Below are positions 10,027 through 51,301 of a stretch of 60,147 nt of DNA, one piece after another. The stretch spans positions 1 to 60,147 of the forward strand of contig NZ_JACIEN010000012.1 in assembly GCF_014196925.1 (NCBI RefSeq). The letters run 5' to 3'. Position 1 is the stretch's first letter. Each line of letters starts with the position of its first letter. A program made the position numbers and the translations under genes. Source of the stretch: Chelatococcus caeni. GTDB lineage: Bacteria > Pseudomonadota > Alphaproteobacteria > Rhizobiales > Beijerinckiaceae. Below the pieces are notes generated by a model. It ran no database searches, was not told the origin of the DNA, and was given only the letters and a program-made list of their open reading frames with translations.

Positions 10027-10055
10027 CGCGATCAAGCATTGCCACGGTCAAGCGC

Positions 10056-15343: not shown

Positions 15344-15634
15344 ACCGAATCCCTCCAGAATCAAGGACCGGTACTTCTCTTAGCCAAAAATTCGTGGGCT
15401 TTGTAAACTACGACTATTTCAGTCGTTCTTTGCGAGAGAGCATCGCAACGCGGGGTCTTCGCACGAAAACTACCATTGTGAACTTGATCGCTACGAAGCC
15501 TTCAGCATTTTTTCTGTTGGCAGATCATGTTGCGTGGTTTGACGGATACGGTAGCAAGAGCACAAAATAGGAACATCAGCTCGTCGATTCGGAAACTACG
15601 GCGTGCATCATCCCTAGAGCCGATAGGGGGCAAA

Positions 15635-34513: not shown

Positions 34514-34525
34514 CAGGGTAGTCTC

Positions 34526-34571
34526 CGCGACGGGCGCCGAGAGCCTCTCTCTCCGCTTCCGACCCGTCGCG
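34526..34571 (-). promoter_or_regulatory. type-A leader hairpin before the parB-like gene
   Basis: CGCGACGGG (34526-34534) and CCCGTCGCG (34563-34571) are perfect nine-base arms enclosing the GAGAGAGAGGCTCTCGGCG block. The GGAG ribosome site sits right at the foot of the stem, so folding could mask or expose it. Confidence 0.65.
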
Positions 34572-34685
34572 AAAACACCTTCCCTCCTCTGACTCTGCGG
34601 GCAGCGCGGTCGGCTTCCTGTGACTGGAAGCCACCGGGAAACCGCGTGCGGAGAAGCCGAGCCCGTCAGGCTGTCCGACAAGCAA

Positions 34686-35174
34686 TCAGATTTCGCCTCG
34701 GGCGCGCAGACTGACCTCCCGGCCGATACCGACGATGATGTGGTCATGCAGCGTTACGCCCAGAACCTTGCAGCCCTTCTGGATTTCCTTCGTCATAGCG
34801 AGGTCGGCGGCCGAGGGTTCGGGATCGCCGGCCGGATGATTGTGCACGATGATCAGCGCGGTCGCGTTGAGCGCCAGGCTCCGCCGCAGCACTTCCCGGG
34901 GATAGACCGGGACATGATCGACCGTGCCGATGGCGAGGCATTCGTCCGAGATGAGCCGGTTCTTTCGGTCGAGATAGAGGACATGGAAGCGCTCTACCTC
35001 TCCACGGATGGTGATGGCACAATAGTCAAGAACCGCCTGCCAGGAGGACAGGACCGGGTTCTGGTTGAGGTGGCGCAGCAGGATCTGGCGGGCCTCGTAG
35101 ACGACGGCCTGCTCCTGGGCCGAGAACCGGAGAGGCTGCGGCTCGATGGTGAGTTTTCTGTGATGTCGCGTCAT
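34686..35174 (-). CDS. radC: RadC-family JAB-domain protein
   Basis: A 162-residue protein with the metal site HNHPAGDPEPSAADLAMT (JAB/MPN+ motif H-x-H...S..D) and RGEVERFHVLYLDRKNRLIS. Only the C-terminal RadC/UPF0758 metalloenzyme domain is present; the N-terminal HhH part of chromosomal RadC is missing. Mobile-element copies are common, and their reaction is not known. Confidence 0.92.
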   Translation of the reverse strand: MTRHHRKLTIEPQPLRFSAQEQAVVYEARQILLRHLNQNPVLSSWQAVLDYCAITIRGEVERFHVLYLDRKNRLISDECLAIGTVDHVPVYPREVLRRSLALNATALIIVHNHPAGDPEPSAADLAMTKEIQKGCKVLGVTLHDHIIVGIGREVSLRARGEI

Positions 35175-35293
35175 GTTCGGATTCCCCGACGGGCAGCCGG
35201 CCGGGTGCCGGGACTTTCACCGCGTCACGGCGAGACGCGCCGCCCTCTGCCTCGGAGAGAGCGGCGCAGGATCGCAAGCCGGAGAGCCGGAAA

Positions 35294-35695
35294 TCAGGCT
35301 TTCCGGGTTTCCGTATCAGGGGGAGTGAGGTTGGACGCGGCGCCGCGGGCGCGGGCGTAAAGAATGCGCTCGGCCGCACGTATGCTGCCAGCCTCTCTTG
35401 CCGCGTCAGCCCAGACCGAGATCGGGAAATCCCCGGTAAAGAGCAGGTCCCGCTCGATCCCCATGCCGAAGGGCAACCGGATGGACTCCATTTCCTCCAG
35501 CGAGAAGCTGCCAAGCTCCGGATAGCCGATATCGGCGAGGCCGAACATGATGTCGCCGTCCGGATCCAGCTCGGTCGCGAGCCAGACGCCTTCGCCGAAC
35601 GGATTGTAGAATTTCACGACCGGCACATGGTCGACGTCGCGCTGACGGCCATTGGCGAGCAGGCGAACGCGCAGTTCGGGTGTCAGGAGGATCAT
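35294..35695 (-). CDS. DUF2958 protein
   Basis: The 133-residue protein reads MILLTPELRVRLLANGRQRD, HVPVVKFYNPFGEGVWLATE and LDPDGDIMFGLADIGYPELG, the DUF2958 signature. It starts four bases inside the end of ardC, so the two are coupled. DUF2958 genes accompany ardC in many plasmids and ICEs, probably in anti-restriction or early DNA establishment. Confidence 0.92.
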   Translation of the reverse strand: MILLTPELRVRLLANGRQRDVDHVPVVKFYNPFGEGVWLATELDPDGDIMFGLADIGYPELGSFSLEEMESIRLPFGMGIERDLLFTGDFPISVWADAAREAGSIRAAERILYARARGAASNLTPPDTETRKA

Positions 35696-36651
35696 GCCGC
35701 TGCCCTCCTGTCGATGATCTCGGCATCGACGGCGGGGCTGTCAGCATCCGGAAGGAAGGACAGGATCCAGTCCGCCGCTTTGCTGGCCTGCGAGGCGGCA
35801 CGGACGATGGCGCGGGAATCCTCGCGCATGACGTCGAGCCAGGAGCCGATGTAATCTGCATGGCGCACGGTCGGGACGATGCCGAGCGAAGCGCAGCAGA
35901 AAGCCGAAATCTGTTCAGCGATCATTTCTTCGAAGGCGTATTTCTTCGAGCCGACGGATCCGGAAAGATCGCGGTTGAGCCGGCTGTGATGACCGCTGGC
36001 GTGACCGATTTCGTGCAGTGCGGTCCGATGCCAGTTGATCGGCTCGTAGTAGGCTTGCGGCGGCGGCACGACCACATAGTCGTGGGCGGGAACGTAGAAC
36101 GCCTTGTCGCCGCCGATGCGGAAGTCGATGCCGGTCGCCTTGATGAGCGCCTCGACCTTCGGCTCGATCAGGCCGGGTGGCGGCGGGATGGTGACGGCGA
36201 TATCGTCGGGCAGCCCCTCGCATTGCGCCGTGTTGAACACGGTGAACCGTTTGAGGAACGGAACGGCCTGCGCCTCTTCTCCAGTCTCGGTGGCGCGCTT
36301 CTTCTCGTCCTCGGGAACGAAGCGGTCGGCATAGACGACGGTGGTGCCGCGCTCGCCCTTGCGCACATTGCCGCCAAGGGAAAGGGCCTGCCGGAAAGTG
36401 AGCCAGCCCTGGCCGGGGAAGCCGTGCTGGACGACGGCGCCCCAGAGGAGAAGGATGTTGATGCCGCTGTAGCTTCGGCCCGTGCTGGCATTCTTCGGCA
36501 GGCCGAGCGGGGCTTTCGCCGCAGACGTGCCCCAGGGCTGCACCCAGGGCACGCGGCCGGCTTCCAGCTCGGCGATGATCTTGTTGGTGATTTCATCGTA
36601 CAGGTTCGTCCGGTCCGGGCCGGCGCGTGGGGTGCGGTCATATCTGGACAT
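35692..36651 (-). CDS. ardC: ArdC-family antirestriction protein
   Basis: A 319-residue protein with an N-terminal ssDNA-binding domain (NLYDEITNKIIAELEAGRVP, WVQPWG) and a C-terminal zincin metalloprotease-like domain carrying HEIGHASGHHSRLNR. ArdC binds single-stranded DNA and shields entering plasmids from restriction. It is the first gene of the backbone block and has a type-A leader directly before its start. Confidence 0.93.
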   Translation of the reverse strand: MSRYDRTPRAGPDRTNLYDEITNKIIAELEAGRVPWVQPWGTSAAKAPLGLPKNASTGRSYSGINILLLWGAVVQHGFPGQGWLTFRQALSLGGNVRKGERGTTVVYADRFVPEDEKKRATETGEEAQAVPFLKRFTVFNTAQCEGLPDDIAVTIPPPPGLIEPKVEALIKATGIDFRIGGDKAFYVPAHDYVVVPPPQAYYEPINWHRTALHEIGHASGHHSRLNRDLSGSVGSKKYAFEEMIAEQISAFCCASLGIVPTVRHADYIGSWLDVMREDSRAIVRAASQASKAADWILSFLPDADSPAVDAEIIDRRAAA

Positions 36652-37085: not shown

Positions 37086-37913
37086 ATGGTTCACGATCAG
37101 CGATCCGCCCTGTCGAGCTATGTCAGCGGCCTGCTCTCCGCGGGCCGGACGGTTTTCACCGCCGAGGAAGCCGAGGCGGCGCTCGGCGTCGGGCGCGGCG
37201 CGTTCCTGGATGCCGCCGAGCGCTTGCAGCGTCGCAAGGCCCTGCTGAACCCGCGGCAAGGGTTTTATGTCGTCGTCCCGCCGCAGTTTGCATCCTGGGG
37301 AGCGCCACCGCCGGCCTGGTACATCGACGCGCTCATGCGTTATGAGCGTCAGGCCTACTATGTCGGGCTTCTCAAGGCCGCAGAATTGCATGGCGCGACG
37401 CACCAGGCGGTCATGGAGTTCCAGGTCGTTTCGGCCAAGCGCCTTCCGAAGATCCGTGCCGGCCGCAACCTGATCGTCTTCTATTTCCGCAAGGACATGG
37501 AAGCGGTGACCGCAGGGATTGAGGGCCGCAAGACCGATACCGGTACAATGAATATCTCGTCAGCAGCTCTGACGGCTCTCGATCTGCTGCGCTATCCGAA
37601 GGCGTCCGGCGGCATCGACAATGTCGCCACGGTGCTCTCCGACCTCGCGGAGAAGATCGATCCCCAGCAACTCGCCACCCTGTCGGCAACCTTTGAGCGG
37701 CCGGTCGTGCAACGCCTCGGACATCTTCTGGATCGCCTCGGCCGCGAGGCCCTGACGACGCCGATGCTGGAGGCGCTGCAGGAACGAGGGGCTGTTCCCT
37801 GGGCCGAACTCGACCGGCAGGAGGCACGGGATCCGGACTTCGCGCCCGAACCACAGGAACGCGATTCCCGCTGGCGTGTGATCGTGCGGCGCGTGCCGGA
37901 GCTCGACGAATGA
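37086..37913 (+). CDS. abiEi: AbiEi-family type IV antitoxin and autoregulator
   Basis: A 275-residue protein with an N-terminal winged HTH (GRTVFTAEEAEAALGVGRGA, QRRKALLNPRQGFYVVVPPQ) followed by the AbiEi C-terminal region (PAWYIDALMRYERQAYYVGL, LKAAELHGATHQAVMEFQVV). It blocks the toxin's action rather than binding it tightly, and represses the operon through the two palindromes upstream. It overlaps the toxin gene by four bases. Confidence 0.92.
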   Translation: MVHDQRSALSSYVSGLLSAGRTVFTAEEAEAALGVGRGAFLDAAERLQRRKALLNPRQGFYVVVPPQFASWGAPPPAWYIDALMRYERQAYYVGLLKAAELHGATHQAVMEFQVVSAKRLPKIRAGRNLIVFYFRKDMEAVTAGIEGRKTDTGTMNISSAALTALDLLRYPKASGGIDNVATVLSDLAEKIDPQQLATLSATFERPVVQRLGHLLDRLGREALTTPMLEALQERGAVPWAELDRQEARDPDFAPEPQERDSRWRVIVRRVPELDE

Positions 37914-38773
37914 TCCCGGCCCAGAACATCGTCGCCTGGGGCAATGTCGTTCCGTGGGCGGATCAGCGCCAGGTCGAGCAGGACCTCATCATCAGCCGCG
38001 CCCTCGTCGACATCTTCTCCGACGACATGCTGCGCGACGCATTGCGGTTCCGAGGCGGAACGGCGCTTAACAAGCTGCATTTTCCGGCGCCGCTGCGCTA
38101 TTCGGAGGACATCGATCTGGTCCGCACCTCCGGCGGTCCGATCGGTCCGATCCTCGACCGACTGCGCGCACTTCTGGAGCCATGGCTCGGGCAGGCGCGG
38201 TTCGACCAGAGCCCCGTCGCGCCGAAGTTTCGCTTCCGGGTCGAGGCCGAGGACGGCAGCGGCGTGCCGATCCGTCTGAAGATCGAGATCAACACCCGCG
38301 AGATCGAGGTGTTCGATGCGCCGGCGGCGTTATCGCTCGAGGTCACCAATCCCTGGTTCTCCGGCGAGGCCGCCATTCCGACATTCTCCCGCGAGGAGAT
38401 GCTGGCGACCAAGCTGCGGGCGTTGCTGCAGCGGGACAAGGGACGCGATCTTTACGACATTGCCCATGCTCTCGAAGTCTTCGAGGATCTCGCCATCGAT
38501 CGCATCGTCGAGATGTTCGGTCGCTATCTCGCCCTTGCCGGCCAGGCGATCTCCCGCGCCGAGGCCCAGCAACGCATGTTCGCCAAGCTGGCGAACCCGC
38601 GCTTTCTGCTCGACATGCGGCCTCTGCTACCGGCGGCTCAGGTGGAGACGCTGACCGAAGCATCGACGGCGGAATCGTTTCGGCTCGTGTTCACGGCACT
38701 GGTCGATCGGCTCCCCGGTGAGCCGTGGGCGAAGACCCCCGCCATGAAGGAAAGGTTTGGAATCTTATGGTAG
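37910..38773 (+). CDS. abiEii: AbiEii/AbiGii-family nucleotidyltransferase toxin
   Basis: A 287-residue protein with the nucleotidyltransferase core RFRGGTALNKLHF and RYSEDIDLVRTSG; GG-T and the D-x-D pair bind NTP and metal. FSREEMLATKLRALLQRDKG and RDLYDIAHAL follow, as usual in this family. Such toxins transfer nucleotides to tRNA and stop growth during phage infection. It is co-translated with the antitoxin. Confidence 0.93.
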   Translation: MIPAQNIVAWGNVVPWADQRQVEQDLIISRALVDIFSDDMLRDALRFRGGTALNKLHFPAPLRYSEDIDLVRTSGGPIGPILDRLRALLEPWLGQARFDQSPVAPKFRFRVEAEDGSGVPIRLKIEINTREIEVFDAPAALSLEVTNPWFSGEAAIPTFSREEMLATKLRALLQRDKGRDLYDIAHALEVFEDLAIDRIVEMFGRYLALAGQAISRAEAQQRMFAKLANPRFLLDMRPLLPAAQVETLTEASTAESFRLVFTALVDRLPGEPWAKTPAMKERFGILW

Positions 38774-38893
38774 CCAGAAGTGTTGCCCGAACGGTGCCGC
38801 GAGAAGGACCAACGGGCGGGATAAGGGTGGATCAATACTGTCAAGTCGCTCGCGGGAATTGAGTTTCAAGCAAGAATCTATCAAGAATTTGCC

Positions 38894-40063
38894 ATGTCAG
38901 GTACTTTGAACTCTGTATCGGTCAAAAAATCGGCACCCGAACGAGAAGTCGCCCGGGGCAACGCCAATTCTGTGCAGGACCACTCGATCTTTCCCGTGAC
39001 CGGGAGCGACGACGTGATGGCGGTCGATCTTTTTTGCGGGGCCGGTGGGCTGACATATGGTCTGCAGCGTGCCGGGATCACCGTGGTCGAAGGCGTCGAT
39101 ATAGATGGTGCGTGCCGGTACGCTTACGAGGTCAACAACGGCTCCCGGTTCGTCCATAAGAGCGCCTTAGATTACACCGCCGCCGATGCTGCCACCGCTC
39201 TCGATGGGGCGAAGGTTCGAGTGCTAGCCGGCTGTGCACCCTGCCAGCCGTTCTCCACCTACACGCAAGGGCCGAGAGGAAATCATCGAGACAAATGGGC
39301 GCTATTGGATCGTTTCGGTGAACTCGCACGGTCGGTGCTGCCAGACATCGTATCGATGGAAAACGTAACGCCTCTGGCAGTTACCGACCGGTTCAAGTCT
39401 TTCGTTGACGAGCTCGAGGAGGCGGGCTTTCGTGTCAAACATTGGATCGTGGACTGTCGCGAGTATGGCGCACCGCAGCAACGTCGCCGTCTTGTGTTAC
39501 TTGCATCGCGGCACGGTGAAATCGACATTCTGCCACCCACCCACAAACACCCAGAACAGTGGACCGCGGTGCGCGACGTGATCGGAGACATGCCCCCGCT
39601 CGGTGCCGGTGAAACCGATACAGGGGATCCGCTTCATCGTACGAGCCGGCTGTCTCCGACGAACATGAAGCGGATGCTTGCCTCGAAACCCGGCGGAACT
39701 TGGCGAGACTGGCCAGATGAGCTTCGCGCACCGTGTCACGTTCGGGAAAGCGGGAAAACGTACCCGGCCGTCTATGGGCGAATGGAGTGGGGCAAACCGG
39801 CTCCCACAATGACGGGGCAGTGCTTCGGATTCGGAAACGGCAGATTCGGTCATCCGGAGCAACATCGTGCCATCAGTCTCCGCGAAGCGGCGATTCTTCA
39901 AACCTTCCCCCGGACATATGAATTCATTGAGCCAGGCTCGGCGGTTTCCATGAAATCCGTCGGCCGAATGATCGGTAACGCCGTACCACCATTGCTGGGG
40001 GAAGTGATCGGGAAGTCGATCGTGCGGCACATTCGCGAAAAGAACATTGTCGGAAACAGCTGA
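38894..40063 (+). CDS. C-5 cytosine DNA methyltransferase (DrmMII/Dcm-like)
   Basis: A 389-residue enzyme with all key motifs: DLFCGAGGL (45-53), catalytic Cys in PCQPFS (116-121), ENV (156-158), QRRR (196-199) and a C-terminal GNAVPP. A variable target-recognition region (about 210-320) lies before the last motifs. It probably marks host DNA as self for the genes that follow. Its last 17 bases overlap the sigma-factor frame, placing it first in a tight four-gene operon. A Vsr gene lies 7.7 kb downstream. Confidence 0.92.
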   Translation: MSGTLNSVSVKKSAPEREVARGNANSVQDHSIFPVTGSDDVMAVDLFCGAGGLTYGLQRAGITVVEGVDIDGACRYAYEVNNGSRFVHKSALDYTAADAATALDGAKVRVLAGCAPCQPFSTYTQGPRGNHRDKWALLDRFGELARSVLPDIVSMENVTPLAVTDRFKSFVDELEEAGFRVKHWIVDCREYGAPQQRRRLVLLASRHGEIDILPPTHKHPEQWTAVRDVIGDMPPLGAGETDTGDPLHRTSRLSPTNMKRMLASKPGGTWRDWPDELRAPCHVRESGKTYPAVYGRMEWGKPAPTMTGQCFGFGNGRFGHPEQHRAISLREAAILQTFPRTYEFIEPGSAVSMKSVGRMIGNAVPPLLGEVIGKSIVRHIREKNIVGNS

Positions 40064-41186
40064 CGATAAGCGTGACCGCCTGGTAGGTCGCACACTCGAG
40101 GACTTGGGCGATGACGCCTATCGTCAGGACGGCGAACTCAAGCGCAGCGAAATCGACGCCACCTATCTTCGACGCGGCATCACGCCCGACGAAGCGATAG
40201 CAATCGAAAGGGCGTTGACGGCCGACAGCATAAGGATAGTCGAAGATTCGGCAGTCAGTGAGGTAACCTTCGAGGGAATTCCGTCACCGCGTGCGGGGAC
40301 GGCGCTAGAGCAGCTACTGGGTCTCGCACGGAAGTATCCTTTGCTCAATGAAGCTGAGGAGCGAGAGCTCGGGTATGCCATCCAAGACGGTTTGCGGTTG
40401 CCGGATGCGGATCGGTTTTCGCCTATCGGGCAGCGTGTCCTCGCGCGGGCCGAGCAGGCGAAGGCGAAGCTCGTGACCTCCAACATTCGCTTGGTCGCCA
40501 AGATGGCCTACGACCGAAGGTTCCGATATCGAATGGATCCAGAGGATCTCGTTCAGTTCGGCTTGATGGGACTGATGAGGGCATGTGACAAGTTCGACCC
40601 GGACTGGGGCACCAGGTTCTCGACATACGCTGTATGGTGGATAAGGCAGGCGATCTCGCGCGGCATCGACGATGTGGGTTCGACGATACGCCTCCCCGTC
40701 CATATGCGCGGACAGATATCGAAATACCGACGCACGAGGCGATCCCTGGGGCTATCCACGGGCTACAGCGCTGCAGACATCCCGAAGATTGCGGAATCGC
40801 TCGGCTGGGATGAAGCCTTCACAGCGAGGATTGCGCAGCTCTCCGAGCAAAAGGTGATCTCGTACGACGTGCCTATCGACGACGAGTCCTCCACGCCGCT
40901 GCGCGAATTTATCAACGACGAAGCTCCGACTCCGGAAGAGGTTGCGATCGCCAGCGACCTCGCGGAGGTTCTCGGAGAGCTGGTAGACGGCATTGGAAAC
41001 GAGCGGCTCATCGATATCGTCCGCCGGCGATTCGGAATTGACGGACCCGCCGAGACGCTCGAGCAGATTGGTCAACAGTATGGTGTGACGCGGGAACGCA
41101 TACGACAGCTCGAAAGCAAGGCGCTCAGGATCTTGCGCGGACGCGCTCGCAAGATCGGCCTGCACAAGACCTTCGAAGGAGATTGA
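40047..41186 (+). CDS. sigma-70 (primary-type) RNA polymerase sigma factor inside the defence operon
   Basis: TTG 40047 is the only start that keeps the frame within the overlap; the product is 379 residues. Region 1.2/2.1 is YPLLNEAEERELGYAIQDGL; region 2 has KLVTSNIRLVAKMAYDR, DLVQFGLMGLMRACDKFDP and WWIRQAISRGIDDVGSTIRL; region 4 has IGQQYGVTRERIRQLESKAL. It has the layout of a housekeeping or general-stress sigma, not an ECF factor. Overlaps with both neighbours show it is part of the system. It may drive the operon itself or redirect polymerase during attack. Confidence 0.88.
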   Translation: MSETADDKRDRLVGRTLEDLGDDAYRQDGELKRSEIDATYLRRGITPDEAIAIERALTADSIRIVEDSAVSEVTFEGIPSPRAGTALEQLLGLARKYPLLNEAEERELGYAIQDGLRLPDADRFSPIGQRVLARAEQAKAKLVTSNIRLVAKMAYDRRFRYRMDPEDLVQFGLMGLMRACDKFDPDWGTRFSTYAVWWIRQAISRGIDDVGSTIRLPVHMRGQISKYRRTRRSLGLSTGYSAADIPKIAESLGWDEAFTARIAQLSEQKVISYDVPIDDESSTPLREFINDEAPTPEEVAIASDLAEVLGELVDGIGNERLIDIVRRRFGIDGPAETLEQIGQQYGVTRERIRQLESKALRILRGRARKIGLHKTFEGD

Positions 41187-44100
41187 AATTGCCGCACACG
41201 GCGATCACCGACCGCTACCAGGCCGCCGAACGTTTTGTCGACTGGCTGGCCGATTTCGTCGTAGCGGATGCTACGGGAGCAAAAAAGTCGGCGCTGGAAG
41301 TGGATCCGTGTGGATTGTTCTGGCTCGGGCGCCTCGCCCCCGAAGAGGAAATCGCCGAATCCAAGCTTGGGGAACGGGCAGAGAGACTGGAGCCATGCGC
41401 CGTCGGCATGCGGCTGGGCCTCGACGCAGAATTTGGAGACATGGTGTCGTTCGACCTCCGTGCTTCGTTCGCGGTCTGGCGGAAGGAGGGCGATAGGTGG
41501 ATCAAGTCCGATCCGATCGACTGCACTGAAAGCGTCAGTATCCTTCTCAATCATGGGTCTACAAATCGATTTACGACATCCATCCAACGCGAGCTCGATA
41601 GCCGCTTTCCGGACTCCGGCCTCGCCGCCGCCATTGAAATCGAGGTGGATACAAGTCGGGATGGTTTGCCGGGATTGACCGTCACCCTCGTCAATTGCTC
41701 GAAGCCAAATCAGGAACAGAAGAACGCTTTCGCCAGAGGGCGGCTGTTTCAGTGCGAACTTGAGGTTTCCGGTCTGCCGACCCGGGAGTTCATTCTCGAA
41801 GCGCTACCCGACAGCTTTCGCTATGATCGGCATGTCCCCGCGTGGGGCATCAACTGCGGGGTTTCCGTCGAGGGATCGGTTTTCACCACCGTCGATCTTC
41901 CGCGCCACGACAAGCCACGCCCTCAATTCTGGAACGCTCCTGGCCAGTCGGAAGATTTCTTTTCCTTCGAAAGGCTTGCAGACGATCCGGTCGCGCCTGG
42001 TCGCGAACTCGTCGAAGCGCTCCGGGCTTGGGGAGACGACGCATGGGACATGGAGCGTATACGATCGAGACATGCCGACTGGTCGGAGGAGATGGAACGC
42101 GAAGCGAGGCGGGAGAGGCAGGGTTTTCTCGAAGAAGTCGAGCGAATAGCTGCCGGTGTCGCGCGCCTCGAGGAAGACCAGGATCTTTGCCGCGCATTTC
42201 GTCTGATGAACGCATCTATGCTCATCTCCGCACGAGACGGCAAGGGTGGCTTCAAATACACATCGTGGCGGCCGTTTCAGATCGGTTTTCTTTACGCGAA
42301 CCTGGACGCTTGCCGAAACGAGGGTGCCGACATCGTCGATATCGTCTGGTTCACGACCGGAGGCGGCAAGACGGAGACCTATCTCGGTCTCATCCTGACA
42401 GCCGCTTTCCTGGATCGCTTTCGTGGCAAGACCACGGGGGTGACGGCGTGGTCGAGATTCCCACTCCGATTGCTTTCGCTCCAACAGACGCAGCGTTTCG
42501 CCAATGCCCTGGCCGCGGCAGAGATGGTCCGCCGCAAGGAGGCAATCGAGGGGGACCCGTTTGGCCTCGGTTTTCTCGTTGGCAGTGGAGCCACCCCCAA
42601 CGAGATCAAACGCGAGAGAAATCGCGATCGGCGCGGCCAATGGGACTACGAGGACGATTCGATGCCAGATCGTCTTCGCATGCTCAAGGTGTGCCCGTTC
42701 TGCCGCACAGACAGCATAGAGATGCGTTTCAATCGGCGATATTGGCGGCTGGAGCACCGCTGCACGAACTCCGACTGCGAGTGGGATATTGCGCAGCCAC
42801 TTCCGATCTGGGTCGTCGATTTCGAAGTATGGCGTTATCTCCCGACGGTGATCGTCGGCACGCTCGACAAGGCGGCGGGCATCGCACTACAGGCCAACAT
42901 GCGTGGGATCATCGGCCCACCTATGGGATACTGTTCCGAGCCCGAGCATGGCCACACTTATGCGACCCGATGGAGTCGTCCGAATGGATGCCTAGTGCCG
43001 GATTGCAAAGGGTCACCTAAAGGCCTCCCGATGGACCCGTCTCTCTATGGGGTGTCGTTCAGACTGCAGGACGAGTTGCATCTTCTGCGTGACAGCCTCG
43101 GAGCTGTCGACGCGCATTACGAGGCGCTCTATGACCACTTGCAGCGACACCTTTCGGGAACGCGGCCCAAAATACTGGCTTCGTCCGCCACGCTGAGCGG
43201 TTACGAAAGACAGAGCGAAGTCCTATACGGCAAAAAAGCACGTGTGTTTCCGTATCCAGAGCCCCAGATAGGAGAAGGCTTCTGGTCCCGGGAGACGGAC
43301 AAGCGAATGCGCTCCTACCTTGCTGTTTCGCCACGCGGGCAGACCGTCGAGTTCGCAGTCGACCGCATGATGATCTCGCTGCAGTCAGCAATCCGCGAAT
43401 GGCTGCGAGATCCGCGCGGCGTCGCAGAGAAGATCGGTGTCGATCCGTCGCTCGCCGACTTCCTAGTCGACATATACGGCACGAACGTCGTGTACGGGAA
43501 CACGCTGCGCGACCTCGACGCTGTTGTCCGTTCGTCTGAGACACAGTGGGAGGCTATCCCTAAGCCGGCGCCCAACGTAACCTCGATGACCGGGCGGACC
43601 CTTTTCTCGGACGTATCGGAAGTCCTCGAAAAGCTCGAACGCCCTGACGCCGAGTTCGCCAACCGACTTCACGTGGTCGCGGCATCCTCGATGATGTCGC
43701 ATGGCGTGGACATCGACCGACTAAACGTGATGGTGATGCTTGGGTTACCGCACACTACGGCCGAGTTCATCCAGGCGACGGCACGTGTGGGGCGCAGGTG
43801 GCCTGCCCTCGCCTTTGTCGTGCACCGAATTGCCAGGGAGCGCGACGCCAGCGTCTTCAAAGCGTTCCCGCAGTACGTGGCTCAGGGTGATCGTTTCGTC
43901 GAACCTATACCGATCACCGGGCATAGCAGACGGGTGCTGGAGCGAACTTTGCCGGGTCTGGCCTTCGCGCGGATCCTGCTGCTTCACGAGCCCCGGGCGG
44001 GCCGCAGCATAGCGAAGGCGAAAGTCTTGCGCGATTATCTGGATGCACACCCTGACTTCTGCGAGAACGAGAGTGCCACGATCGCCGGGATGCTCGGCTA

Positions 44101-44287
44101 CACCGATGAAATGACGGCCGATCTCTCCCAAGACGTGCGATGGTGGTACGAACGTCTCGCTGCGAATCTCGGCGATCCAGCGCACGCCAACGAATGGTCG
44201 AATTCCATGGGGCCGAAAGGTGGCCCCATGCTGTCTCTTCGCGACGTTGAGGAGCAAGTCGAGATTCGCGGAGAGGACCCGAGATGA
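41183..44287 (+). CDS. drmA: DrmA-like superfamily II helicase
   Basis: TTG 41183 overlaps the sigma stop and follows GAAGGAG. The 1034-residue protein has motif I TTGGGKTE at 391-398, a four-Cys zinc site between 504 and 532 (CPFC...CTNSDC), a DExH-like QDELHLL at 629-635, SAT at 668-670, and GVDIDRLN plus QATARVGRR near 841-872. The motif set and its partnership with a DUF1998 protein match DrmA of DISARM. The first 350 residues are not recognisable. It would translocate on non-self DNA. It overlaps drmB by four bases. Confidence 0.75.
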   Translation: MKLPHTAITDRYQAAERFVDWLADFVVADATGAKKSALEVDPCGLFWLGRLAPEEEIAESKLGERAERLEPCAVGMRLGLDAEFGDMVSFDLRASFAVWRKEGDRWIKSDPIDCTESVSILLNHGSTNRFTTSIQRELDSRFPDSGLAAAIEIEVDTSRDGLPGLTVTLVNCSKPNQEQKNAFARGRLFQCELEVSGLPTREFILEALPDSFRYDRHVPAWGINCGVSVEGSVFTTVDLPRHDKPRPQFWNAPGQSEDFFSFERLADDPVAPGRELVEALRAWGDDAWDMERIRSRHADWSEEMEREARRERQGFLEEVERIAAGVARLEEDQDLCRAFRLMNASMLISARDGKGGFKYTSWRPFQIGFLYANLDACRNEGADIVDIVWFTTGGGKTETYLGLILTAAFLDRFRGKTTGVTAWSRFPLRLLSLQQTQRFANALAAAEMVRRKEAIEGDPFGLGFLVGSGATPNEIKRERNRDRRGQWDYEDDSMPDRLRMLKVCPFCRTDSIEMRFNRRYWRLEHRCTNSDCEWDIAQPLPIWVVDFEVWRYLPTVIVGTLDKAAGIALQANMRGIIGPPMGYCSEPEHGHTYATRWSRPNGCLVPDCKGSPKGLPMDPSLYGVSFRLQDELHLLRDSLGAVDAHYEALYDHLQRHLSGTRPKILASSATLSGYERQSEVLYGKKARVFPYPEPQIGEGFWSRETDKRMRSYLAVSPRGQTVEFAVDRMMISLQSAIREWLRDPRGVAEKIGVDPSLADFLVDIYGTNVVYGNTLRDLDAVVRSSETQWEAIPKPAPNVTSMTGRTLFSDVSEVLEKLERPDAEFANRLHVVAASSMMSHGVDIDRLNVMVMLGLPHTTAEFIQATARVGRRWPALAFVVHRIARERDASVFKAFPQYVAQGDRFVEPIPITGHSRRVLERTLPGLAFARILLLHEPRAGRSIAKAKVLRDYLDAHPDFCENESATIAGMLGYTDEMTADLSQDVRWWYERLAANLGDPAHANEWSNSMGPKGGPMLSLRDVEEQVEIRGEDPR

Positions 44288-45990
44288 AGGAAACCAGAAG
44301 CGCATCGCAAATCCTTTACGGTCATCTCCCGCAGCAGACTGTCGATGTCAGAGGCGGCGTTTGGAAAGTCAAAAGTTGGAAGTACAAGCCTGTTCACGAG
44401 GTCGATGCAGAGGCATTGTCAGCAGAATTGATCCGGCTTGCCGCCCCTTGGGAAGCGAGCGGTCGCGATGGGCGACTCGTGGCCAGCTTGAGAGCGGGTG
44501 CGAATGTACAGGTGCGATCGCTCGATCGGGAACTCGGAGCTTGGTTGGAGCCGTTCCCGAAGACCTGGCGGTGCAAGAACTGCTCACGACTGTTGGATAG
44601 CCCCCGGGCACGTTGCAAATGCGGTGCGATCGGGCCGCACGGGCAACTCCCTTTCGTATTGTTTCACGACGCTTGCGGGGACATACGGGAGCCCAGCTAT
44701 CCGCGTTGTCCGGCTCATGACGATGTGAGGATGCGCTTGCCCGGGACGACCAGTCTGCGAGAAATCGAGCTCTCGTGCCCTGAATGCAATCGAACTTTGC
44801 GATCGAACTTCCTCTATACCAACTGCACTTGTGGCCAATCGGGCCGGAATGGCGAGAGGATGGAATTCACGGTTCACCGCAGCGCTTCCGTCTATGTCCC
44901 GAGGAGCGTCGTGATCGTGAATCCCCCGTCACGCACTCAGAGGCGGCGACTACACGCCGCGGGGGGTGGGCCGGCCGCACTGGCGTGGGTAGCGGAAGGA
45001 ATGGCATCGCCTTGGGTCGATGGAGTTGCTGGCGCGAAGTCTGCGGCGCTTCGAAGAACTCTGGCAGAGCAAGGATTGACTCCGGAACAGATCGACGCCG
45101 CGCTTGCGGCCGCTGGGGTGGCAGACGACAAGCCGCGGGAGCTCCGTATCTCGCCCGAGGTTAACGATGCCGCAGAGTATGACGCTTCCGCGATCGCCCT
45201 TGCGATGTCAGAGACGAGGAAGACCATCGGAGATCTGAAGAGGACCGCCACGGGGAAGAGGCAGGCGCTTTATGACGGCCAGTACGACCATGCCTTGAAA
45301 CGCGCGGGAGTGCAGAGAATCGATCTGGTGGAGCGCTTTCCGATCCTGAACGGTCAATTCGGTTACACGCGGGGCGATCACGAGCCGGGAGCGTCACGAC
45401 TTCGGGCGTTCACCGAACGAGACGGTACAGTCGTGGTTTATGGGGACCTCGCCACCACGGAAGCGCTTATTACTCGGCTGGATCCGGTCCGGGTCTCGTA
45501 TTGGCTACGGGAACGAGGACACGGAATCGAGGTGAAGGACAACATACGAGATGCCTACGAGGGAATCCTCGGCGCGGTGGGAAATGATCCTGAAAACTCG
45601 GCGGTCCTGTCCGACATCACGACCCTCGTTCACAGCTTTTCGCACCGAATGGTCCGACAGACCTCCTACTATGCAGGTATCGATAGGGAATCCATTTCCG
45701 AGCTCCTATTCCCCTTGGCTTTGGCTGTCGTGACATACGCCGTTCCTAGGGGCGACTTCGTCCTCGGGGGCTTACAGGCCATGTTCGAGCACGATCTGCA
45801 CACGGTCTTGGATCGCGTGGTGTTGGACGAATCGCGATGTGCATTGGATCCAGGTTGTTGGGAATCGAGGCACGGGGCAGCCTGTGCCGTATGCCTTCAT
45901 CTGGGCGAACCGTCGTGTCGGCTATTCAATACGCGACTCGATCGGAAGGTGCTGTTCGATACGGATGGCTACTTTCGAATGCGCAGCTGA
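44284..45990 (+). CDS. drmB: DrmB-like DUF1998 protein
   Basis: A 568-residue protein with two zinc-binding areas (WRCKNCSRLLDSPRARCKCG near 98-117, and CPECNRTLRSNFLYTNCTCG), a middle region of unknown fold, and a C-terminal DUF1998 domain with HSFSHRMVRQTSYYAGIDRE and Cys-rich CALDPGCWESRHGAACAVCL. DrmB works with DrmA as the DNA-sensing core of DISARM. It is the last gene of the operon and faces the NERD helicase gene on the other strand. Confidence 0.8.
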   Translation: MKETRSASQILYGHLPQQTVDVRGGVWKVKSWKYKPVHEVDAEALSAELIRLAAPWEASGRDGRLVASLRAGANVQVRSLDRELGAWLEPFPKTWRCKNCSRLLDSPRARCKCGAIGPHGQLPFVLFHDACGDIREPSYPRCPAHDDVRMRLPGTTSLREIELSCPECNRTLRSNFLYTNCTCGQSGRNGERMEFTVHRSASVYVPRSVVIVNPPSRTQRRRLHAAGGGPAALAWVAEGMASPWVDGVAGAKSAALRRTLAEQGLTPEQIDAALAAAGVADDKPRELRISPEVNDAAEYDASAIALAMSETRKTIGDLKRTATGKRQALYDGQYDHALKRAGVQRIDLVERFPILNGQFGYTRGDHEPGASRLRAFTERDGTVVVYGDLATTEALITRLDPVRVSYWLRERGHGIEVKDNIRDAYEGILGAVGNDPENSAVLSDITTLVHSFSHRMVRQTSYYAGIDRESISELLFPLALAVVTYAVPRGDFVLGGLQAMFEHDLHTVLDRVVLDESRCALDPGCWESRHGAACAVCLHLGEPSCRLFNTRLDRKVLFDTDGYFRMRS

Positions 45991-45996
45991 CGAGCG

Positions 45997-47592
45997 TCAC
46001 CTCCATCCTACGGAAGCCTTTCGGGAGGGCGAACCAAGGACGTTCAAGTAGGCCCGAGCACGGCTGAAGCCGACATATGCATTTCGGTCGGGCGGCTCGG
46101 GCGTATCCCCGTCAAGGGCGAGGACCACGGCAAGGGCCTCCAGGCCCTTGAATCGGCCTATAGTTTCGGCCACCACTCCGGAGCCACCGTAGGGGCAAAA
46201 TCCAGAGTCGGCGACGGCCATCTCCCTGAGCCTTCCCACGAGGCTCGCAGTCTCGCACAAAACGACGATGTCGCGCTTTTCGAACCCTTCTGCGAGCAGC
46301 TTTTCGACGATACGCTGCACGAGACGAGGCGCATCCGGCACCCTGGTTAGGTCCGACCATTTGGCCGGTGGTCCATCGATACATAAGTCGTCGACATCAA
46401 AGCCGGCGATTACCGCCACGCGTTCCGATATAGGTCGTGCGTTTCGACAATTGGTGGTGAGATCGAGTCTGAAACGTTGCGCATCCGGCACCCAGTCCCG
46501 GTCCCAAAGGCGCTGATGTTCATCAGCGAATACATAAAAGGGCGCGTCGGGACCGGCACTACAAAGCGCCTCCAGTACCTCGATCCAACTCCCGGCAAAG
46601 TCCTGCCCCTCATCGACCACGATGGCGTCGAAGGTCAGACCATTCCTCTCCATGGCTTCAAGAAGTACCAATGGCGCGTCGCCTGTCCACCAGTTCGAAT
46701 CCGGCATTCTCGGTATCGGCACTCCTGACGATTTAGCGGCTGTCATGCAAAGGGAGTGAAAGGTCGCGGTTCTTATGTCGTGGAGCGAGGGATCGGCAGC
46801 CAGTCGGCGTGCCAGCAGTTCGTTGAAACACGTCAGCAGGACGCTATTGCCTTCGTCTCTGAGCTGACGCGCTTTTTCGCAAGCCAATACCGTCTTCCCG
46901 GTGCCGGCGCCTCCGAACACGACCGCTCTGGGGGTCCTTCGGGTCATCGCGAAGGCCCGAACCTGACCTTGGGTCAATTGCAGGAGTCCGGCGTCGGCGT
47001 CGTGAGCGGCATCGGCCAACGTCCGTCTGACTGTAACGGTCGGAGCGAGCGCGTCGACGATTCTGGTCGTGTCGGCCGCGGACAAGCTCGCCTTCTGTTG
47101 CCAATGGTCGAGAACGCGTGCGAGGGAGATGTGAACATCCGACAGTCCTCGACCGTCGATGACGATTTCGGTCGGTGCGGCGGGCCCGAGTTCGAGCGAG
47201 TAGGTGATGTCGGGAAACACGACGGCGTGGCAAGTCGGGACATATAGGCCCAAACGGCCTCTCAGCCACTTGTGCAGGTTCACTTTCGACGTGGTCGCCT
47301 GCTCGAAAGGGTTTTTGATATCGTTCACTCGACCATGACGGTCTTCGGAAACCCAGCGGCCATTCCGGAGATCGACACCGCCGCCCTTCACCTCCAATAC
47401 TACGATGCCAAAGGATCGATGGAGGAGCACGAAATCAGCCTCTCCATCGGCAAGCCGGTTGCCTCGCGGGCCGAGCCACGCCACGGAATGTATGATGTGC
47501 CAGTCGTCCGAAAGCGCCTTTAGTGCGGCGTGGACCTTCAATTCGGACTGAGGATCGTAACCGGCGACTGGATATGAGATAGTGATAGCCAT
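45997..47592 (-). CDS. NERD-nuclease/UvrD-type helicase
   Basis: From ATG 47592 the protein has 531 residues. The N-terminal NERD domain has PD-(D/E)xK-like residues in GEADFVLLHRSFGIVVLEVK (50-69). The UvrD/Rep half has GGAGTGKT at 227-234, VDEGQDFAGSWI, and a C-terminal YVGFSRARAYLNVL. It probably cuts and unwinds foreign DNA. It is convergent with drmB (six-base gap) and divergent from vsr, so it is expressed separately from the operon. Confidence 0.88.
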   Translation of the reverse strand: MAITISYPVAGYDPQSELKVHAALKALSDDWHIIHSVAWLGPRGNRLADGEADFVLLHRSFGIVVLEVKGGGVDLRNGRWVSEDRHGRVNDIKNPFEQATTSKVNLHKWLRGRLGLYVPTCHAVVFPDITYSLELGPAAPTEIVIDGRGLSDVHISLARVLDHWQQKASLSAADTTRIVDALAPTVTVRRTLADAAHDADAGLLQLTQGQVRAFAMTRRTPRAVVFGGAGTGKTVLACEKARQLRDEGNSVLLTCFNELLARRLAADPSLHDIRTATFHSLCMTAAKSSGVPIPRMPDSNWWTGDAPLVLLEAMERNGLTFDAIVVDEGQDFAGSWIEVLEALCSAGPDAPFYVFADEHQRLWDRDWVPDAQRFRLDLTTNCRNARPISERVAVIAGFDVDDLCIDGPPAKWSDLTRVPDAPRLVQRIVEKLLAEGFEKRDIVVLCETASLVGRLREMAVADSGFCPYGGSGVVAETIGRFKGLEALAVVLALDGDTPEPPDRNAYVGFSRARAYLNVLGSPSRKASVGWR

Positions 47593-47815
47593 GGAAATCA
47601 ATTCTATAAGCGCTGGCGACGAGTCCAAGAAGACATCAGTTTCAAAGAACTACTATTAAGTTGAGGCTGCGGGTCGTGGAGCGGTTGGCCAAACGAAAAT
47701 CGATCGGAGGTCGGTCTGCGGCTGCCGCGACGTTCGGGCAGGACGACGGGATCGGCGAATCTCAGGAGGGATTCATGGTGATCGATCGCTTCACACCGTT
47801 TGAGAGAGACTGATC

Positions 47816-48289
47816 TTGGAAGTAGACCCGATCAGGAGTCGCATCATGCGTGCCGTCCGGCAGAAGAATACCGGACCGGAAATGACCGTGCGGCGCCTCC
47901 TGCATGCATCTGGTTATCGCTTTCGCGTCCAGCGCCGTGACCTGCCGGGCTCGCCGGACATCGTGCTGCCGAAGCACAACTTGGCCATCTTCGTGCATGG
48001 CTGCTTTTGGCACCGGCATCCGGGTTGCAAGAAGGCGACGACGCCCAGGACGCGAGCCGAGTTCTGGGCGGCGAAGTTCGAGCGAAACGTCATGCGTGAT
48101 AGCGAAAACGAAGCGGCGCTCCGAGTGATGGGTTGGCGGGTACTCACCATTTGGGAATGTGAGGCCAGGTCGACCGACACGCTCGTGGCAAAGTTGATGT
48201 CGGCACTGCCGCCGACGAGCGCGAGCGAACTCACGGTCCTTCGGGACATCGGCGATGATGAAGCTAATGCGGCGCCTGGTCATCGATAG
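47816..48289 (+). CDS. vsr: very-short-patch repair endonuclease Vsr
   Basis: TTG 47816 follows GAGAGA. The 157-residue protein carries SRIMRAVRQKNTGPEMTVRR, the catalytic Asp in PGSPDIVLPKHN, and the zinc/His set in FVHGCFWHRHPGCKKA. Vsr cuts at T:G mismatches arising from deaminated 5-methylcytosine. Its presence suggests the methyltransferase at 38894 is active and causes C-to-T damage. Its end overlaps the PIN-like gene. Confidence 0.93.
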   Translation: MEVDPIRSRIMRAVRQKNTGPEMTVRRLLHASGYRFRVQRRDLPGSPDIVLPKHNLAIFVHGCFWHRHPGCKKATTPRTRAEFWAAKFERNVMRDSENEAALRVMGWRVLTIWECEARSTDTLVAKLMSALPPTSASELTVLRDIGDDEANAAPGHR

Positions 48290-49118
48290 CAGCATGCTGC
48301 AGTCGGAGGATCTCAGGCTGTTTCTCAATGCATCAGCCGCGAATTTTGCCGTTCTACCGGACTTCGTTTGGTTCGAGCTGTACAAGCAGGAATCGATCGA
48401 AGCGATTGTGGCTGGGATGTCCGTCATCGGTGACTTCCCGGAACAGGTCATCGTCTTGAAACCGGGAAAGGAAATCGTGGAAATCGATCCTCGAACCCCG
48501 AATATGACCTCCTCAATGCAGCGCTCCGACGTGGCGCATCAGATTCGAGGAATGGTCGCCATTTTGGACGGGCCGGACCGAGACGAGCCCGGGGTTCGCG
48601 CTCAGTTAGAACGACTTTGGTCCGGCGCTGTAAATGCGCTTTCCGGAATGCTCGAAGGTGCCCACGACATATTGGTTTCGTTGCCGGAGATGGCCGAGCA
48701 AATGTTTACGCCTCAGCACCTTCGCATCATCAGGAGGAATACGCGATACACGCCGGAGATGTTCTCGTCGATCTTCGGAGCCGCTGATCAGATATGGGAG
48801 ACGCTATCGGGGGGTGACCAGGATTCCACCTGCCCGGCGCCCGAAGAACTCAGAACGCAAGCCTATCTCTACCGCTACTCGCTTGCGATCGTCATTTACC
48901 TGCTCTGGTGGGTCAAGAACGGGAATCAAACTCCGAAACGGCTCGACCGCGCAAGAAACGATCTCATCGATTTGAGCTTCGCAGTATATGGTACATATTA
49001 CGAGGGCTTGATGACCGCCGACAAGAAACTGGATTGGACGCATCAAAACCTTTCACTTGCTCTCAACGCCATCGGTGCAGAGGTGCCGGCAATTCGCTAT
49101 TGGCGGCCATCATCGTAA
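48255..49118 (+). CDS. PIN-like-domain protein of the defence island
   Basis: A 287-residue protein. The start (RRLVIDSSMLQSEDLRLFLN), LPDFVWFELYKQ and the late LMTADKKLDWTHQNLSLAL place acidic residues as in PIN ribonucleases. About 180 residues of helical insert lie between the second and third blocks, so it is larger than VapC-type toxins. It overlaps vsr by 35 bases and is probably co-translated. An RNase effector role is plausible but not shown. ATG 48267 is an alternative start. Confidence 0.65.
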   Translation: MMKLMRRLVIDSSMLQSEDLRLFLNASAANFAVLPDFVWFELYKQESIEAIVAGMSVIGDFPEQVIVLKPGKEIVEIDPRTPNMTSSMQRSDVAHQIRGMVAILDGPDRDEPGVRAQLERLWSGAVNALSGMLEGAHDILVSLPEMAEQMFTPQHLRIIRRNTRYTPEMFSSIFGAADQIWETLSGGDQDSTCPAPEELRTQAYLYRYSLAIVIYLLWWVKNGNQTPKRLDRARNDLIDLSFAVYGTYYEGLMTADKKLDWTHQNLSLALNAIGAEVPAIRYWRPSS

Positions 49119-49302
49119 GCTTTCGCGTTGGAAACTCATCGGACGATCTTTGCATAAAAAGAATTTAGCAAATTAGAATACGGCGACGCGCGAGGTTGCG
49201 ACGACAAATTCAGTGTACGATGGAAACAGTAGATGACTCAGTAGCTTCTCACCTCTAGTCTGATGTGATGCAAACGAGCCCTGGACAGATGAAGAGAACG
49301 AT

Positions 49303-50101
49303 TTGATCGTCGCGGATTACTTCGCAATGCTCGCTGACGACGTCGCCGGCCGGTCCTATAGCAAGGCCGAATGTAACCGACGACTACAAGAGCGGATCGA
49401 CCGCTCCCGAAAGTCGATCGAGTTCAAGCACCAGAACATCAGTGCAGTGCTCAAGGGGCTTGGCGAGGATTGGATTCCTGGCTACCGGCCGGCCTTCCAC
49501 TTCCAGACGTCTCTGATCGATGCAGTAGTGCGTTGGCTGGCGCAGAATCCGGGTTGGTTTGCCAGAAGGCCCTCCGCACGCGAAGACTCCGGGCTACGCG
49601 AGACATCACCGCTCTGGGTCGGGCCGCCACCCACGCTTTCGAATTCAGCCGCCGCCGCAGGAACTGGAGCAGACGCTACACATTGCCCGAAAGTTCGATG
49701 TCGCGGGTAGGGACGAGCGCAATCGCGCGCTCGGTCGAGCGGGAGAAGAACGTGTCTTGGCTCATGAACATGCCTCGCTGACCAACGCGGGCCGAAACGA
49801 TCTAGCACGCAAGATACGATGGGTGTCGCAGGAAGATGGAGACGGTGCGGGTTACGACATCGCAAGCTTCTCGGCAGACGGGCGGTCTCGATTGATCGAG
49901 GTCAAGACGACGAACGGTTGGGAACGCACACCCTTTCACGTCACGCGCAACGAACTGGCGGTTGCCGAGGAGAAGCGCGCCGAATGGTGCTTGTTCCGGC
50001 TCTAGAACTTCTCGCGCGAGCCGAAGGCGTTCGAGCTATATCCGCCATTGGATGCTCACGTCTCACTGACGGCGATGACGTTTCAGGCGAGCTTCGTTTG
50101 A
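49303..50101 (+). pseudogene. DUF3883 gene broken by a frameshift and an amber stop
   Basis: The first part (49303 on) reads MIVADYFAMLADDVAGRSYS and KSIEFKHQNISAVLKGLGED. Near 49651 the frame must shift: an extra G before CCG-CCG-CCG-CAG moves it to PPPQELEQTLHIARKFDVAG, and GRAGEERVLAHE leads into the DUF3883 endonuclease-like core IEVKTTNGWERTPF. A TAG at 50003-50005 then interrupts WCLFRL-stop-NFSREPKAFELYPP, and the native end is at 50101. Two separate lesions indicate a decayed defence gene. Confidence 0.8.
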
Positions 50102-50462
50102 GTCTATTGCCGGCTCCTGCAGATAACTGCCGAGCGCATCGTGATGCACTTGAATATCCGAGCCGGAGGAACTCGCCACCACCTTTGCCACCCCCTCCAT
50201 CCATCCCTCTTCGCACCGATAAGCATCGGAACTCTGACGGCCGCCGCGTGATCAAATCAGCCCCGCACTTGCCACTGTAGAGCCCGACCCGGGTTTGCAC
50301 CGGGTGGGCGTTCTCGCTCTCGACCGGAGGTCGAGATTGAATGGAGGCGATCGTGGCCAAACCGCTCATCACCGAAGATCAACTAGCCGGCAGGGGCGCC
50401 GGGGCACTCGCAGCTTTACGGCCGAATACATACACGGCAAATTAGAACGCTGGGAGGGGGCG
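50102..50462. other. 361 bp gap before the DUF2971 gene
   Basis: No family is recognisable. A 34-codon frame (50341-50445, MEAIVAKPLITEDQLAGRGA) might be a remnant. GACCCGGGTTTGCACCGGGT forms a short hairpin near 50286. The region probably carries the promoter of the DUF2971/Rad50-S24 pair. Confidence 0.4.
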
Positions 50463-51194
50463 ATGAATACGAAGAACTATATCAATCTACAAGCCACCGA
50501 GTTTGACGGCTATATCTACCGCGTGATGCCGCTCGGGCGGTTTTACGAACTGTTCGCAAACAAGCAGAACGTGCTGGTCCGGCCCTCGAAATGGGATGAC
50601 CCGTTCGAGAATTTCATCCTGAACGCCCCCGCGCGGCTTGCTGATGGCACGATCGCGAAGTTCGCATTCAACAACGACTTCTACGGGCAATGCTGGACGC
50701 GGCAGACCAGCTCCGATGCTATCTGGCGTATCTATTCGCCCGACAAGACCGGCGTGCGGGTGCGCACCACGATCCGCAACCTCCTCACCGGATTGCAGGC
50801 CCCGCTTGGCGACTGGGCGCATAAGCAAGCTTTCATCGGCAAGGTCCAGTACATGGGCGACAGGAAGCTGGTGGAATTCGGCAACAAGGTGTTCCGCGGT
50901 GGCCTGCACGTCCGCGCGCTGGCCGAAACGCTACTGGTCAAGCGCAACGCCTTCATCCACGAGCGTGAGGTACGGCTTCTCTATCTGGAGAAGAATAAGG
51001 GAAAGCAGGACATCTATGCCTACTCGGTCGATCCGCACGCACTGATCGACCAAATTATGATCGACCCGCGCCTGCCGCTCTCTGACGTGAACAAGGTGAA
51101 GGACGAGATCCGCAGGCGCACCGGCTTCAAGGGGCGGATTATGAGGTCACTGCTCTACGCACCGCCGAAGGACATGATTTTCCCGATCGGGTAA
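50463..51194 (+). CDS. DUF2971 protein
   Basis: ATG 50463 follows GGGAGGGGG. The 243-residue protein has the DUF2971 pattern: YRVMPLGRFYELFANKQNVL, VRPSKWDDPFEN near the start, then CWTRQTSSDAIWRIYSPDKT and AFIHEREVRLLYLEKNKGKQ. DUF2971 genes often lie in defence islands, but the activity is unknown. It stands 79 bp ahead of the Rad50-like gene in the same direction and may be its partner. Confidence 0.82.
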   Translation: MNTKNYINLQATEFDGYIYRVMPLGRFYELFANKQNVLVRPSKWDDPFENFILNAPARLADGTIAKFAFNNDFYGQCWTRQTSSDAIWRIYSPDKTGVRVRTTIRNLLTGLQAPLGDWAHKQAFIGKVQYMGDRKLVEFGNKVFRGGLHVRALAETLLVKRNAFIHEREVRLLYLEKNKGKQDIYAYSVDPHALIDQIMIDPRLPLSDVNKVKDEIRRRTGFKGRIMRSLLYAPPKDMIFPIG

Positions 51195-51273: not shown

Positions 51274-51297
51274 ATGAGCTCCATGATGATTGGCTAA
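51274..51297 (+). CDS. possible seven-codon leader ORF before the Rad50-S24 gene
   Basis: The strong GGGGGAG at 51257-51263 precedes ATG 51274, which opens MSSMMIG and stops at 51297. The large gene's ATG at 51302 follows four bases later without its own ribosome site. Termination-reinitiation would then set the level of the large protein. This is inferred from spacing alone. Confidence 0.35.
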   Translation: MSSMMIG

Positions 51298-51301
51298 CGC
51301 A

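Follow-up and report, generated by a model that had tools for sequence, protein, structure and literature searches.

A sigma-70-family factor as near-constant companion of DrmA and DrmB in a DISARM-related operon

The operon in Chelatococcus caeni

Contig NZ_JACIEN010000012.1 of Chelatococcus caeni was analysed over positions 1-60,147, and this whole stretch of 60,147 nucleotides is called the window here. At 38894-45990 it carries an operon of four open reading frames (ORFs), all on the + strand, whose successive overlaps in the ORF list are 17, 4 and 4 bases. The operon is very probably a defence operon related to DISARM (defence island system associated with restriction-modification), built on a DrmAB core and a 5-methylcytosine (5mC) methyltransferase and belonging to a distinct clade in which a factor resembling a primary sigma is the near-constant third partner. 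A sequence-only reading of the stretch had described the four overlapping genes and called them DISARM-like; the arrangement is borne out by the ORF coordinates and by profile searches, and the likeness by PADLOC matches to DrmA, DrmB and DrmMII and by Protein Data Bank (PDB) matches to 7s9v_A and 7s9v_B. The four genes are:

38894..40063, + strand: C5-cytosine DNA methyltransferase (Dcm / DrmMII-like), 389 aa
40047..41186, + strand: full-length sigma-70-family factor with region 1.1-like module and regions 1.2, 2, 3 and 4, 379 aa, TTG start
41183..44287, + strand: DrmA-like YprA-family superfamily 2 (SF2) helicase, 1034 aa, TTG start
44284..45990, + strand: DrmB-like DUF1998 protein, 568 aa

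The methyltransferase matches Pfam PF00145 (DNA_methylase, 4.4e-48) and, in PADLOC, both MTase_II (1.1e-85) and DrmMII (1.9e-82), the generic MTase_II profile scoring slightly better; its PCQ and ENV motifs are intact. DrmA is matched by the PADLOC DrmA profile (1.6e-99) and by the sequence of PDB 7s9v_A (2.1e-51), with intact GGGKTE and DELH motifs. A fold search with a low-confidence model (mean predicted local distance difference test score, pLDDT, 68.2) places 7s9v_A (1.4e-38) and 7s9w_A (2.1e-38) first, the next other protein lying at 4.9e-6. For DrmB, Pfam gives no match at 1e-3; PADLOC recognises it as DrmB (2e-31), the DrmB profile matches PDB 7s9v_B (3.3e-13), and 14 cysteines, among them C519, C525, C534, C537 and C545, are invariant in 12 sequences including the window's. 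Zinc motifs, like the catalytic ones, are intact. A DrmA helicase of the DISARM branch, a DrmB and a 5mC methyltransferase are all present by these PADLOC and PDB profile matches. The curated NCBIfam cut-offs are reached neither by DrmA (373 of 950 bits) nor by DrmB (75 of 240 bits); because of this, and because DrmC is unmatched, the operon is filed as a DISARM-related variant and not as canonical DISARM.

Recurrence of the sigma gene with drmA and drmB

Related loci were chosen by DrmA alone, with a profile of its C-terminal part built from three sigma-bearing loci (window, Roseomonas and Burkholderia). A scan of 84,980 species genomes yielded 102 stretches matching the patterns, 32 of them confirmed, which together with two plasmids and two viral contigs make up 36 related loci. 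By tblastn, 33 of these loci contain the sigma gene beside drmAB, and chance occurrence of the operon is therefore excluded. The figure becomes 34 of 35 judgeable loci when a second-contig copy is counted for L018, whose stretch ends inside the NERD gene and whose genome has a 3.2-kb contig carrying sigma and then the start of NERD; L042 begins near the DrmA start and hence is unjudgeable. The hosts of the clade are Pseudomonadota, Myxococcota, Acidobacteriota and Actinomycetota, a recurrence in unrelated hosts that the sequence-only reading had said would speak for a system; its contrary expectation, that complete homologous operons would lack the gene, fits a single judgeable locus, L028. 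A further member of the clade, L156, comes from an actinobacterial survey.

Gene order varies. The Roseomonas and Burkholderia plasmids also have the genes for sigma, DrmA, DrmB and Dcm, arranged differently from the window. In 22 of the 33 loci sigma precedes drmA in the same orientation, at a spacing of -49 to +36 nt (by extrapolation); in the other 11 (layout B) it lies on the strand opposite to drmAB and adjoins the NERD gene, which shares its strand.

The distribution on the DrmA tree is far from random. When 68 DrmA proteins are placed on a tree by a quick method without bootstrap (L002, whose gene is broken, and L008 left out), the sigma label requires four changes, against a mean of 22.1 in shuffles, none of the 500 being as low. 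We assign two of the four to L028 and to L042, whose stretch is cut off. The remaining two mark the sigma-bearing clades: that of the window, with 37 rows, and a small second one (L048, L152, L153 and L154). Longer flanks were examined for 32 DrmA loci that do not belong to the window's clade (L008, L044-L055 and L152-L171 minus L156): four carry sigma, all in the second clade, and 28 do not. This ratio is not an unbiased rate: 20 genome stretches were picked from 44 genomes with a match among 794 searched, and L152, L153 and L156 were picked because a short first stretch showed sigma. Four of the 28 (L044 and L053-L055) are archaeal, for which absence is expected because archaea could not use such a factor. 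The 49 short stretches L101-L149 show sigma in five cases: the window, the genome of L034, L156, L152 and L153.

The sigma proteins of the second clade can be much larger. In Streptomyces fungicidicus (L048:4646-8467) a 1273-aa sigma-70 protein is encoded upstream of drmA-drmB; by eye, its long C-terminal part is coiled-coil-like and repetitive. At L154:1031-4627 the sigma protein has 1198 aa, with HTH_3 and a further part. A GHKL assignment of its C-terminal half, suggested by motif likeness only, was rejected: Pfam gives no such match, and PADLOC only PDC-M33A.

A sigma gene usually found away from drmA and drmB would, on the sequence-only reading, have been a passenger. A profile of the sigma N-terminus (21 rows) was run against 398 genomes of the phylum, at most ten candidates per genome being scored, and in these no free-standing copy was seen: the window gene scores 124.7 bits and the next best 41.7 bits. 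Matches occur in 310 of the 398 genomes. The top ones, in frames of ∼620-880 aa, are consistent with RpoD; further matches, in frames of ∼280-320 aa, cover the 1.2 part only. On plasmids the window N-terminus matched one of 72,556 records, the Burkholderia DrmAB locus; this test is insensitive, since the known Roseomonas locus was missed. Viral contigs that carry sigma genes number at least 509; of the best 80 of them, none has DrmA-E, Dcm, NERD, Vsr or MzaB-E in flanks of up to 7 kb.

Sigma, DrmA and DrmB are co-inherited. Pairwise distances correlate at 0.968 for sigma and DrmA (n=32), 0.958 for sigma and DrmB (n=32) and 0.979 for DrmA and DrmB (n=33), with L002, L018 and L042 left out; the values include host descent and differ in n. 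Correlations with Dcm are lower (sigma-Dcm 0.835, n=25; DrmA-Dcm 0.82, n=26).

The sigma protein

Membership of the sigma-70 family follows from Pfam regions 2 (1.1e-15, 57.6 bits) and 4 (1.5e-11, 44.1 bits), both above cut-off. The sequence-only reading had listed regions 1.2, 2, 3 and 4; region 3 (1.5e-4, 22.2 bits) falls below its cut-off of 25.3, and region 1.2 has no Pfam match at 1e-3 in the window protein, being matched in its relatives L026 and L034. What that reading missed is a region 1.1-like module: in the 398-genome scan the N-terminal profile matches the N-termini of RpoD and marks this part as homologous to RpoD regions 1.1 and 1.2, while direct profile comparison with RpoD is weaker (probability 49, E 1.7e-4). 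The family profile matches SigA structures at up to 6.5e-109. An AlphaFold 2 model (mean pLDDT 84.8, predicted template-modelling score 0.54) finds sigma factors as its best folds, at a whole-chain template-modelling score of only ∼0.4.

R584, E585, R586, R588, Q589, N383, D403, T429, Y430, W433 and W434 (E. coli numbering) are kept in all 34 sigmas, and Q406 and Q437 in 33 of them. We take R584, E585, R586, R588 and Q589 to belong to the -35 helix, and T429, Y430, W433 and W434, as well as Q437, to serve promoter melting. Because many core- and promoter-contact residues are invariant in the 34 proteins, and because the N-terminus is homologous to that of RpoD, the DrmAB-associated sigma is, by its sequence, probably a working sigma factor. 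It is ∼39% identical to the host's own RpoD, and in a tree it falls outside the RpoD clade (support 100/97). Its best NCBIfam match is MzaA, at 227.7 bits against a cut-off of 800 bits; the tree gives no supported joining with MzaA as sister group.

Other genes of the related loci and the surrounding island

Counts of gene content (E up to 1e-6, bounded by the available flanks) give, for the 36 loci, DrmB in 36, Dcm in 30, a NERD helicase in 20, Vsr in 18 and DrmD in nine. The absence of a DrmC-type phospholipase D (PLD), remarked on by the sequence-only reading, agrees with PADLOC, which finds no DrmC among nine window proteins, and with four DrmC queries, which find none in the 36 loci at 1e-6; their sensitivity is limited, since among three controls with an annotated non-query PLD protein two were found and L045 was missed. 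PLD annotation is likewise absent from L001 and L002. PADLOC also finds no DrmE among the nine window proteins. Three DrmE queries give none in 36 loci, a zero that says little because these queries recovered nothing but themselves, and the DrmE annotated in L054 escaped them. All nine DrmD-matching loci are actinobacterial; the DrmD-like gene follows drmB in eight and, in L026, lies on the other side on the opposite strand. In L029, the sole locus scanned for it, the gene beyond the DrmD-like one encodes a type IIG methyltransferase with DrmMI matches.

Two probable accessory genes lie next to the window operon:

45997..47628, - strand, convergent: NERD-domain UvrD-like helicase (Pfam NERD 4e-11, AAA_19), homologue in 20 of 36 loci
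47816..48289, + strand: Vsr-type endonuclease (Pfam Vsr 1.6e-26), homologue in 18 of 36 loci

Overlapping vsr, a 287-aa protein (48255-49118) has no match in Pfam, PADLOC, NCBIfam or PHROGs; further along come a candidate defence protein, PDC-S31 (50295-51194, 1.2e-90), and an SMC-like ATPase of 1336 aa that weakly resembles LmuB (51290-55300, 1.8e-14). An AbiEi antitoxin and AbiEii toxin pair (37086-38773) stands immediately upstream of the operon, and a CD-NTase at 15527-16960, with SMODS (Pfam 4.2e-48) and AGS_C sensor (6.3e-44) domains, is a CBASS-type synthase. An integrated mobile element seems to harbour the operon; a MobA/MobL relaxase-helicase, a Strawberry-notch helicase, a ParB-like protein (below cut-off), RadC, ArdC and a phage-type integrase are encoded at 7048-10035, 22158-26501, 32369-36651 and 55576-56847. 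Elsewhere, on a Miltoncostaea oceani plasmid (L007:4011-10008), two sigma-70 genes occupy ∼6 kb end to end, with SMC, DHH and AAA ATPase genes near.

How the sigma factor may act

The near-constant sigma hints at transcription start as part of recognising or fighting invading DNA. We tentatively favour a mechanism, somewhat short of an even chance, in which the promoters of incoming DNA are marked for DrmAB by sigma-holoenzyme, their opening being the recognition or loading step. The sigma would bind the host RNA polymerase core and form a holoenzyme that locates sigma-70-type promoters, a step proposed because the protein keeps most of the same contact residues. DrmAB would then be brought to, or loaded on, promoter DNA opened by this holoenzyme. 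Known DISARM DrmAB is self-inhibited and loads on single-stranded DNA or 5' overhangs, less well when methylated, as described in PMC9142583; opening by a housekeeping-like sigma yields single-stranded DNA, which is why promoter opening is favoured as the step. Incoming DNA without the Dcm mark would be engaged once its promoters open, and methylated host DNA would be spared. The NERD helicase or Vsr would complete the attack in the stead of DrmC, which that paper calls non-essential and often missing in DISARM. In favour of the mechanism we count the recurrence and co-inheritance of the sigma, its occurrence in two DrmA clades, its conserved contacts and RpoD-like N-terminus, the additional modules of MzaA and of the L048 and L154 sigma proteins, and the parallels in MZA and TALON.

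Several observations weigh against this mechanism. In L028 (Salinispora oceanensis) the sigma gene is cleanly deleted at 7700-8110 with both flanks kept, the frames of drmA, drmB, drmD and the methyltransferase are whole, and no such sigma occurs elsewhere in the genome. Since the operon is otherwise whole, sigma may be dispensable, which counts against a strict need for it. In the 11 layout-B loci sigma is not co-transcribed with drmAB, and the sigma of L153 stops within region 3, without region 4. Conservation also has gaps: T440 is T in only five of the 34 sigmas, S428 is replaced by K in all 11 layout-B sigmas, and region 1.2 positions and contacts are variable among the 34. The window protein itself departs from RpoD at E407 (F), N409 (L), R423 (W), Y425 (T) and E458 (G). 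Moreover, a direct role is not cleanly separable here from a regulatory one.

Two alternatives, a back-up sigma and a dedicated regulator, are both slightly disfavoured by the lack of a promoter signature and by the restriction of the sigma to systems with a DNA motor, most of which also have Dcm. Inactivation or replacement of the host's primary sigma is frequent among phages, and a back-up sigma with the same promoter taste and a different surface would keep defence genes transcribed when this happens. The RpoD-like -35 contacts are as this requires, and so are the divergence of the rest of the protein from host RpoD, its place outside the RpoD clade and the presence of R at R596 in only five of 34 sigmas. 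Such a benefit, however, would suit any defence system, yet the sigma is found in two DrmA clades and not in the 28 other DrmA loci, the four archaeal ones included; we regard a back-up as rather unlikely.

Sigma factors commonly act as dedicated regulators. One that transcribes its own operon or island from private promoters, keeping a harmful system off until needed, would fit the 22 of 33 loci in which sigma immediately precedes a drmA of the same orientation. Searches for such promoters stayed at shuffle level. Matches to -35/-10 elements upstream of the operons show no excess in sets of 11, 12 and 9 regions against 100 shuffles each, and a two-block motif sought de novo upstream of the 11 layout-B operons scores 7 against 6, 7 and 7 in three shuffles only, these being small sets with uncertain start sites. 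A promoter scan of 38600-49500 gives one match against a shuffle mean of 3.5. The -35 helix is also unspecialised, and its housekeeping-like contacts disfavour a private regulon; we consider a dedicated regulator unlikely.

As a decoy or guard, the sigma would mimic RpoD, and binding by a phage anti-sigma or polymerase modifier would trigger DrmAB. Its close likeness to RpoD, the region 1.1-like module included, is what such bait would show, but the melting residues W433, W434 and Q437 would be kept needlessly in a decoy and no link to a trigger is known; we consider this improbable. That the sigma is an accidental passenger hitch-hiking in the defence island, for which the one judgeable locus in 35 without it might speak, is so improbable that we reject it, because the gene is recurrent, co-inherited and not found free.

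Comparison with known systems

Like DISARM of class 1 and class 2, the window operon has DrmA and DrmB as separate genes together with a C5 methyltransferase. DrmA of the window clade aligns nearly end to end with the DrmA of seven loci that we label class-2-like (hhalign E ∼1e-158), and with class 1 DrmA from residue 138 (1.2e-85). A special loss of the EVE-like domain in the window clade was considered and dropped: the lack goes with the class of DrmA, because the alignment with class-2-like DrmA begins at residue 28. The differences from DISARM are the near-constant sigma, DrmC unmatched in all 36 loci within the limited sensitivity of that test, and DrmA and DrmB scores far below the NCBIfam cut-offs. 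The sequence-only reading knew of no described type with a sigma factor. For DISARM this stands, no report of one having been found in the literature searched, which took in few subscription papers; for YprA helicases, the word 'sigma' occurs in the main text of the preprint on them as a supplier name only.

For anti-phage systems as a whole it does not stand, since MZA (MzaABCDE) includes a sigma. MzaA, the best NCBIfam match of the window protein, is named a sigma-70-family factor there and a sigma factor in PMC9523054, so sigma use in defence has precedent; of a sigma accompanying DrmAB no report was found in the literature searched. In two MZA or MZA-like loci the sigma occurs with Dcm in both and with Vsr in one. 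The systems differ in that the window sigma falls far short of the MzaA cut-off and the nine window proteins include no match to MzaB-E; MzaA also carries ankyrin repeats.

According to PMC12458937, TALON and TOTE combine a YprA-family helicase with a NERD nuclease and with TBP, which serves in transcription initiation, and in this they resemble the window operon. TBP and sigma are unrelated proteins, and TALON is described in that paper as very rare and largely confined to Chloroflexota. In ARMADA, by the same source, the DUF1998 module is fused to the YprA helicase, whereas the window has them as separate, unfused genes (41183-44287 and 44284-45990). With RpoD/SigA the window sigma shares regions 1.1-like to 4, the -35 helix and the melting residues; it differs in its limited identity to host RpoD, its length (379 aa against ∼700) and its separate branch.

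The conserved sigma offers a way to test how DISARM finds targets without a fixed sequence: ongoing transcription may be what makes incoming DNA recognisable. It is possible, if on balance doubtful, that the immune system includes host RNA polymerase with a private sigma as a working component and couples restriction to the initiation of transcription, with the opening of promoters on unmarked DNA as the trigger. The use of an initiation factor as recognition subunit of a DNA motor would then have had independent origins in two lineages of DrmAB, in MZA and, based on TBP, in TALON. If so, three unlike types of defence would be joined by one idea, that of a transcription-initiation factor as sensor.

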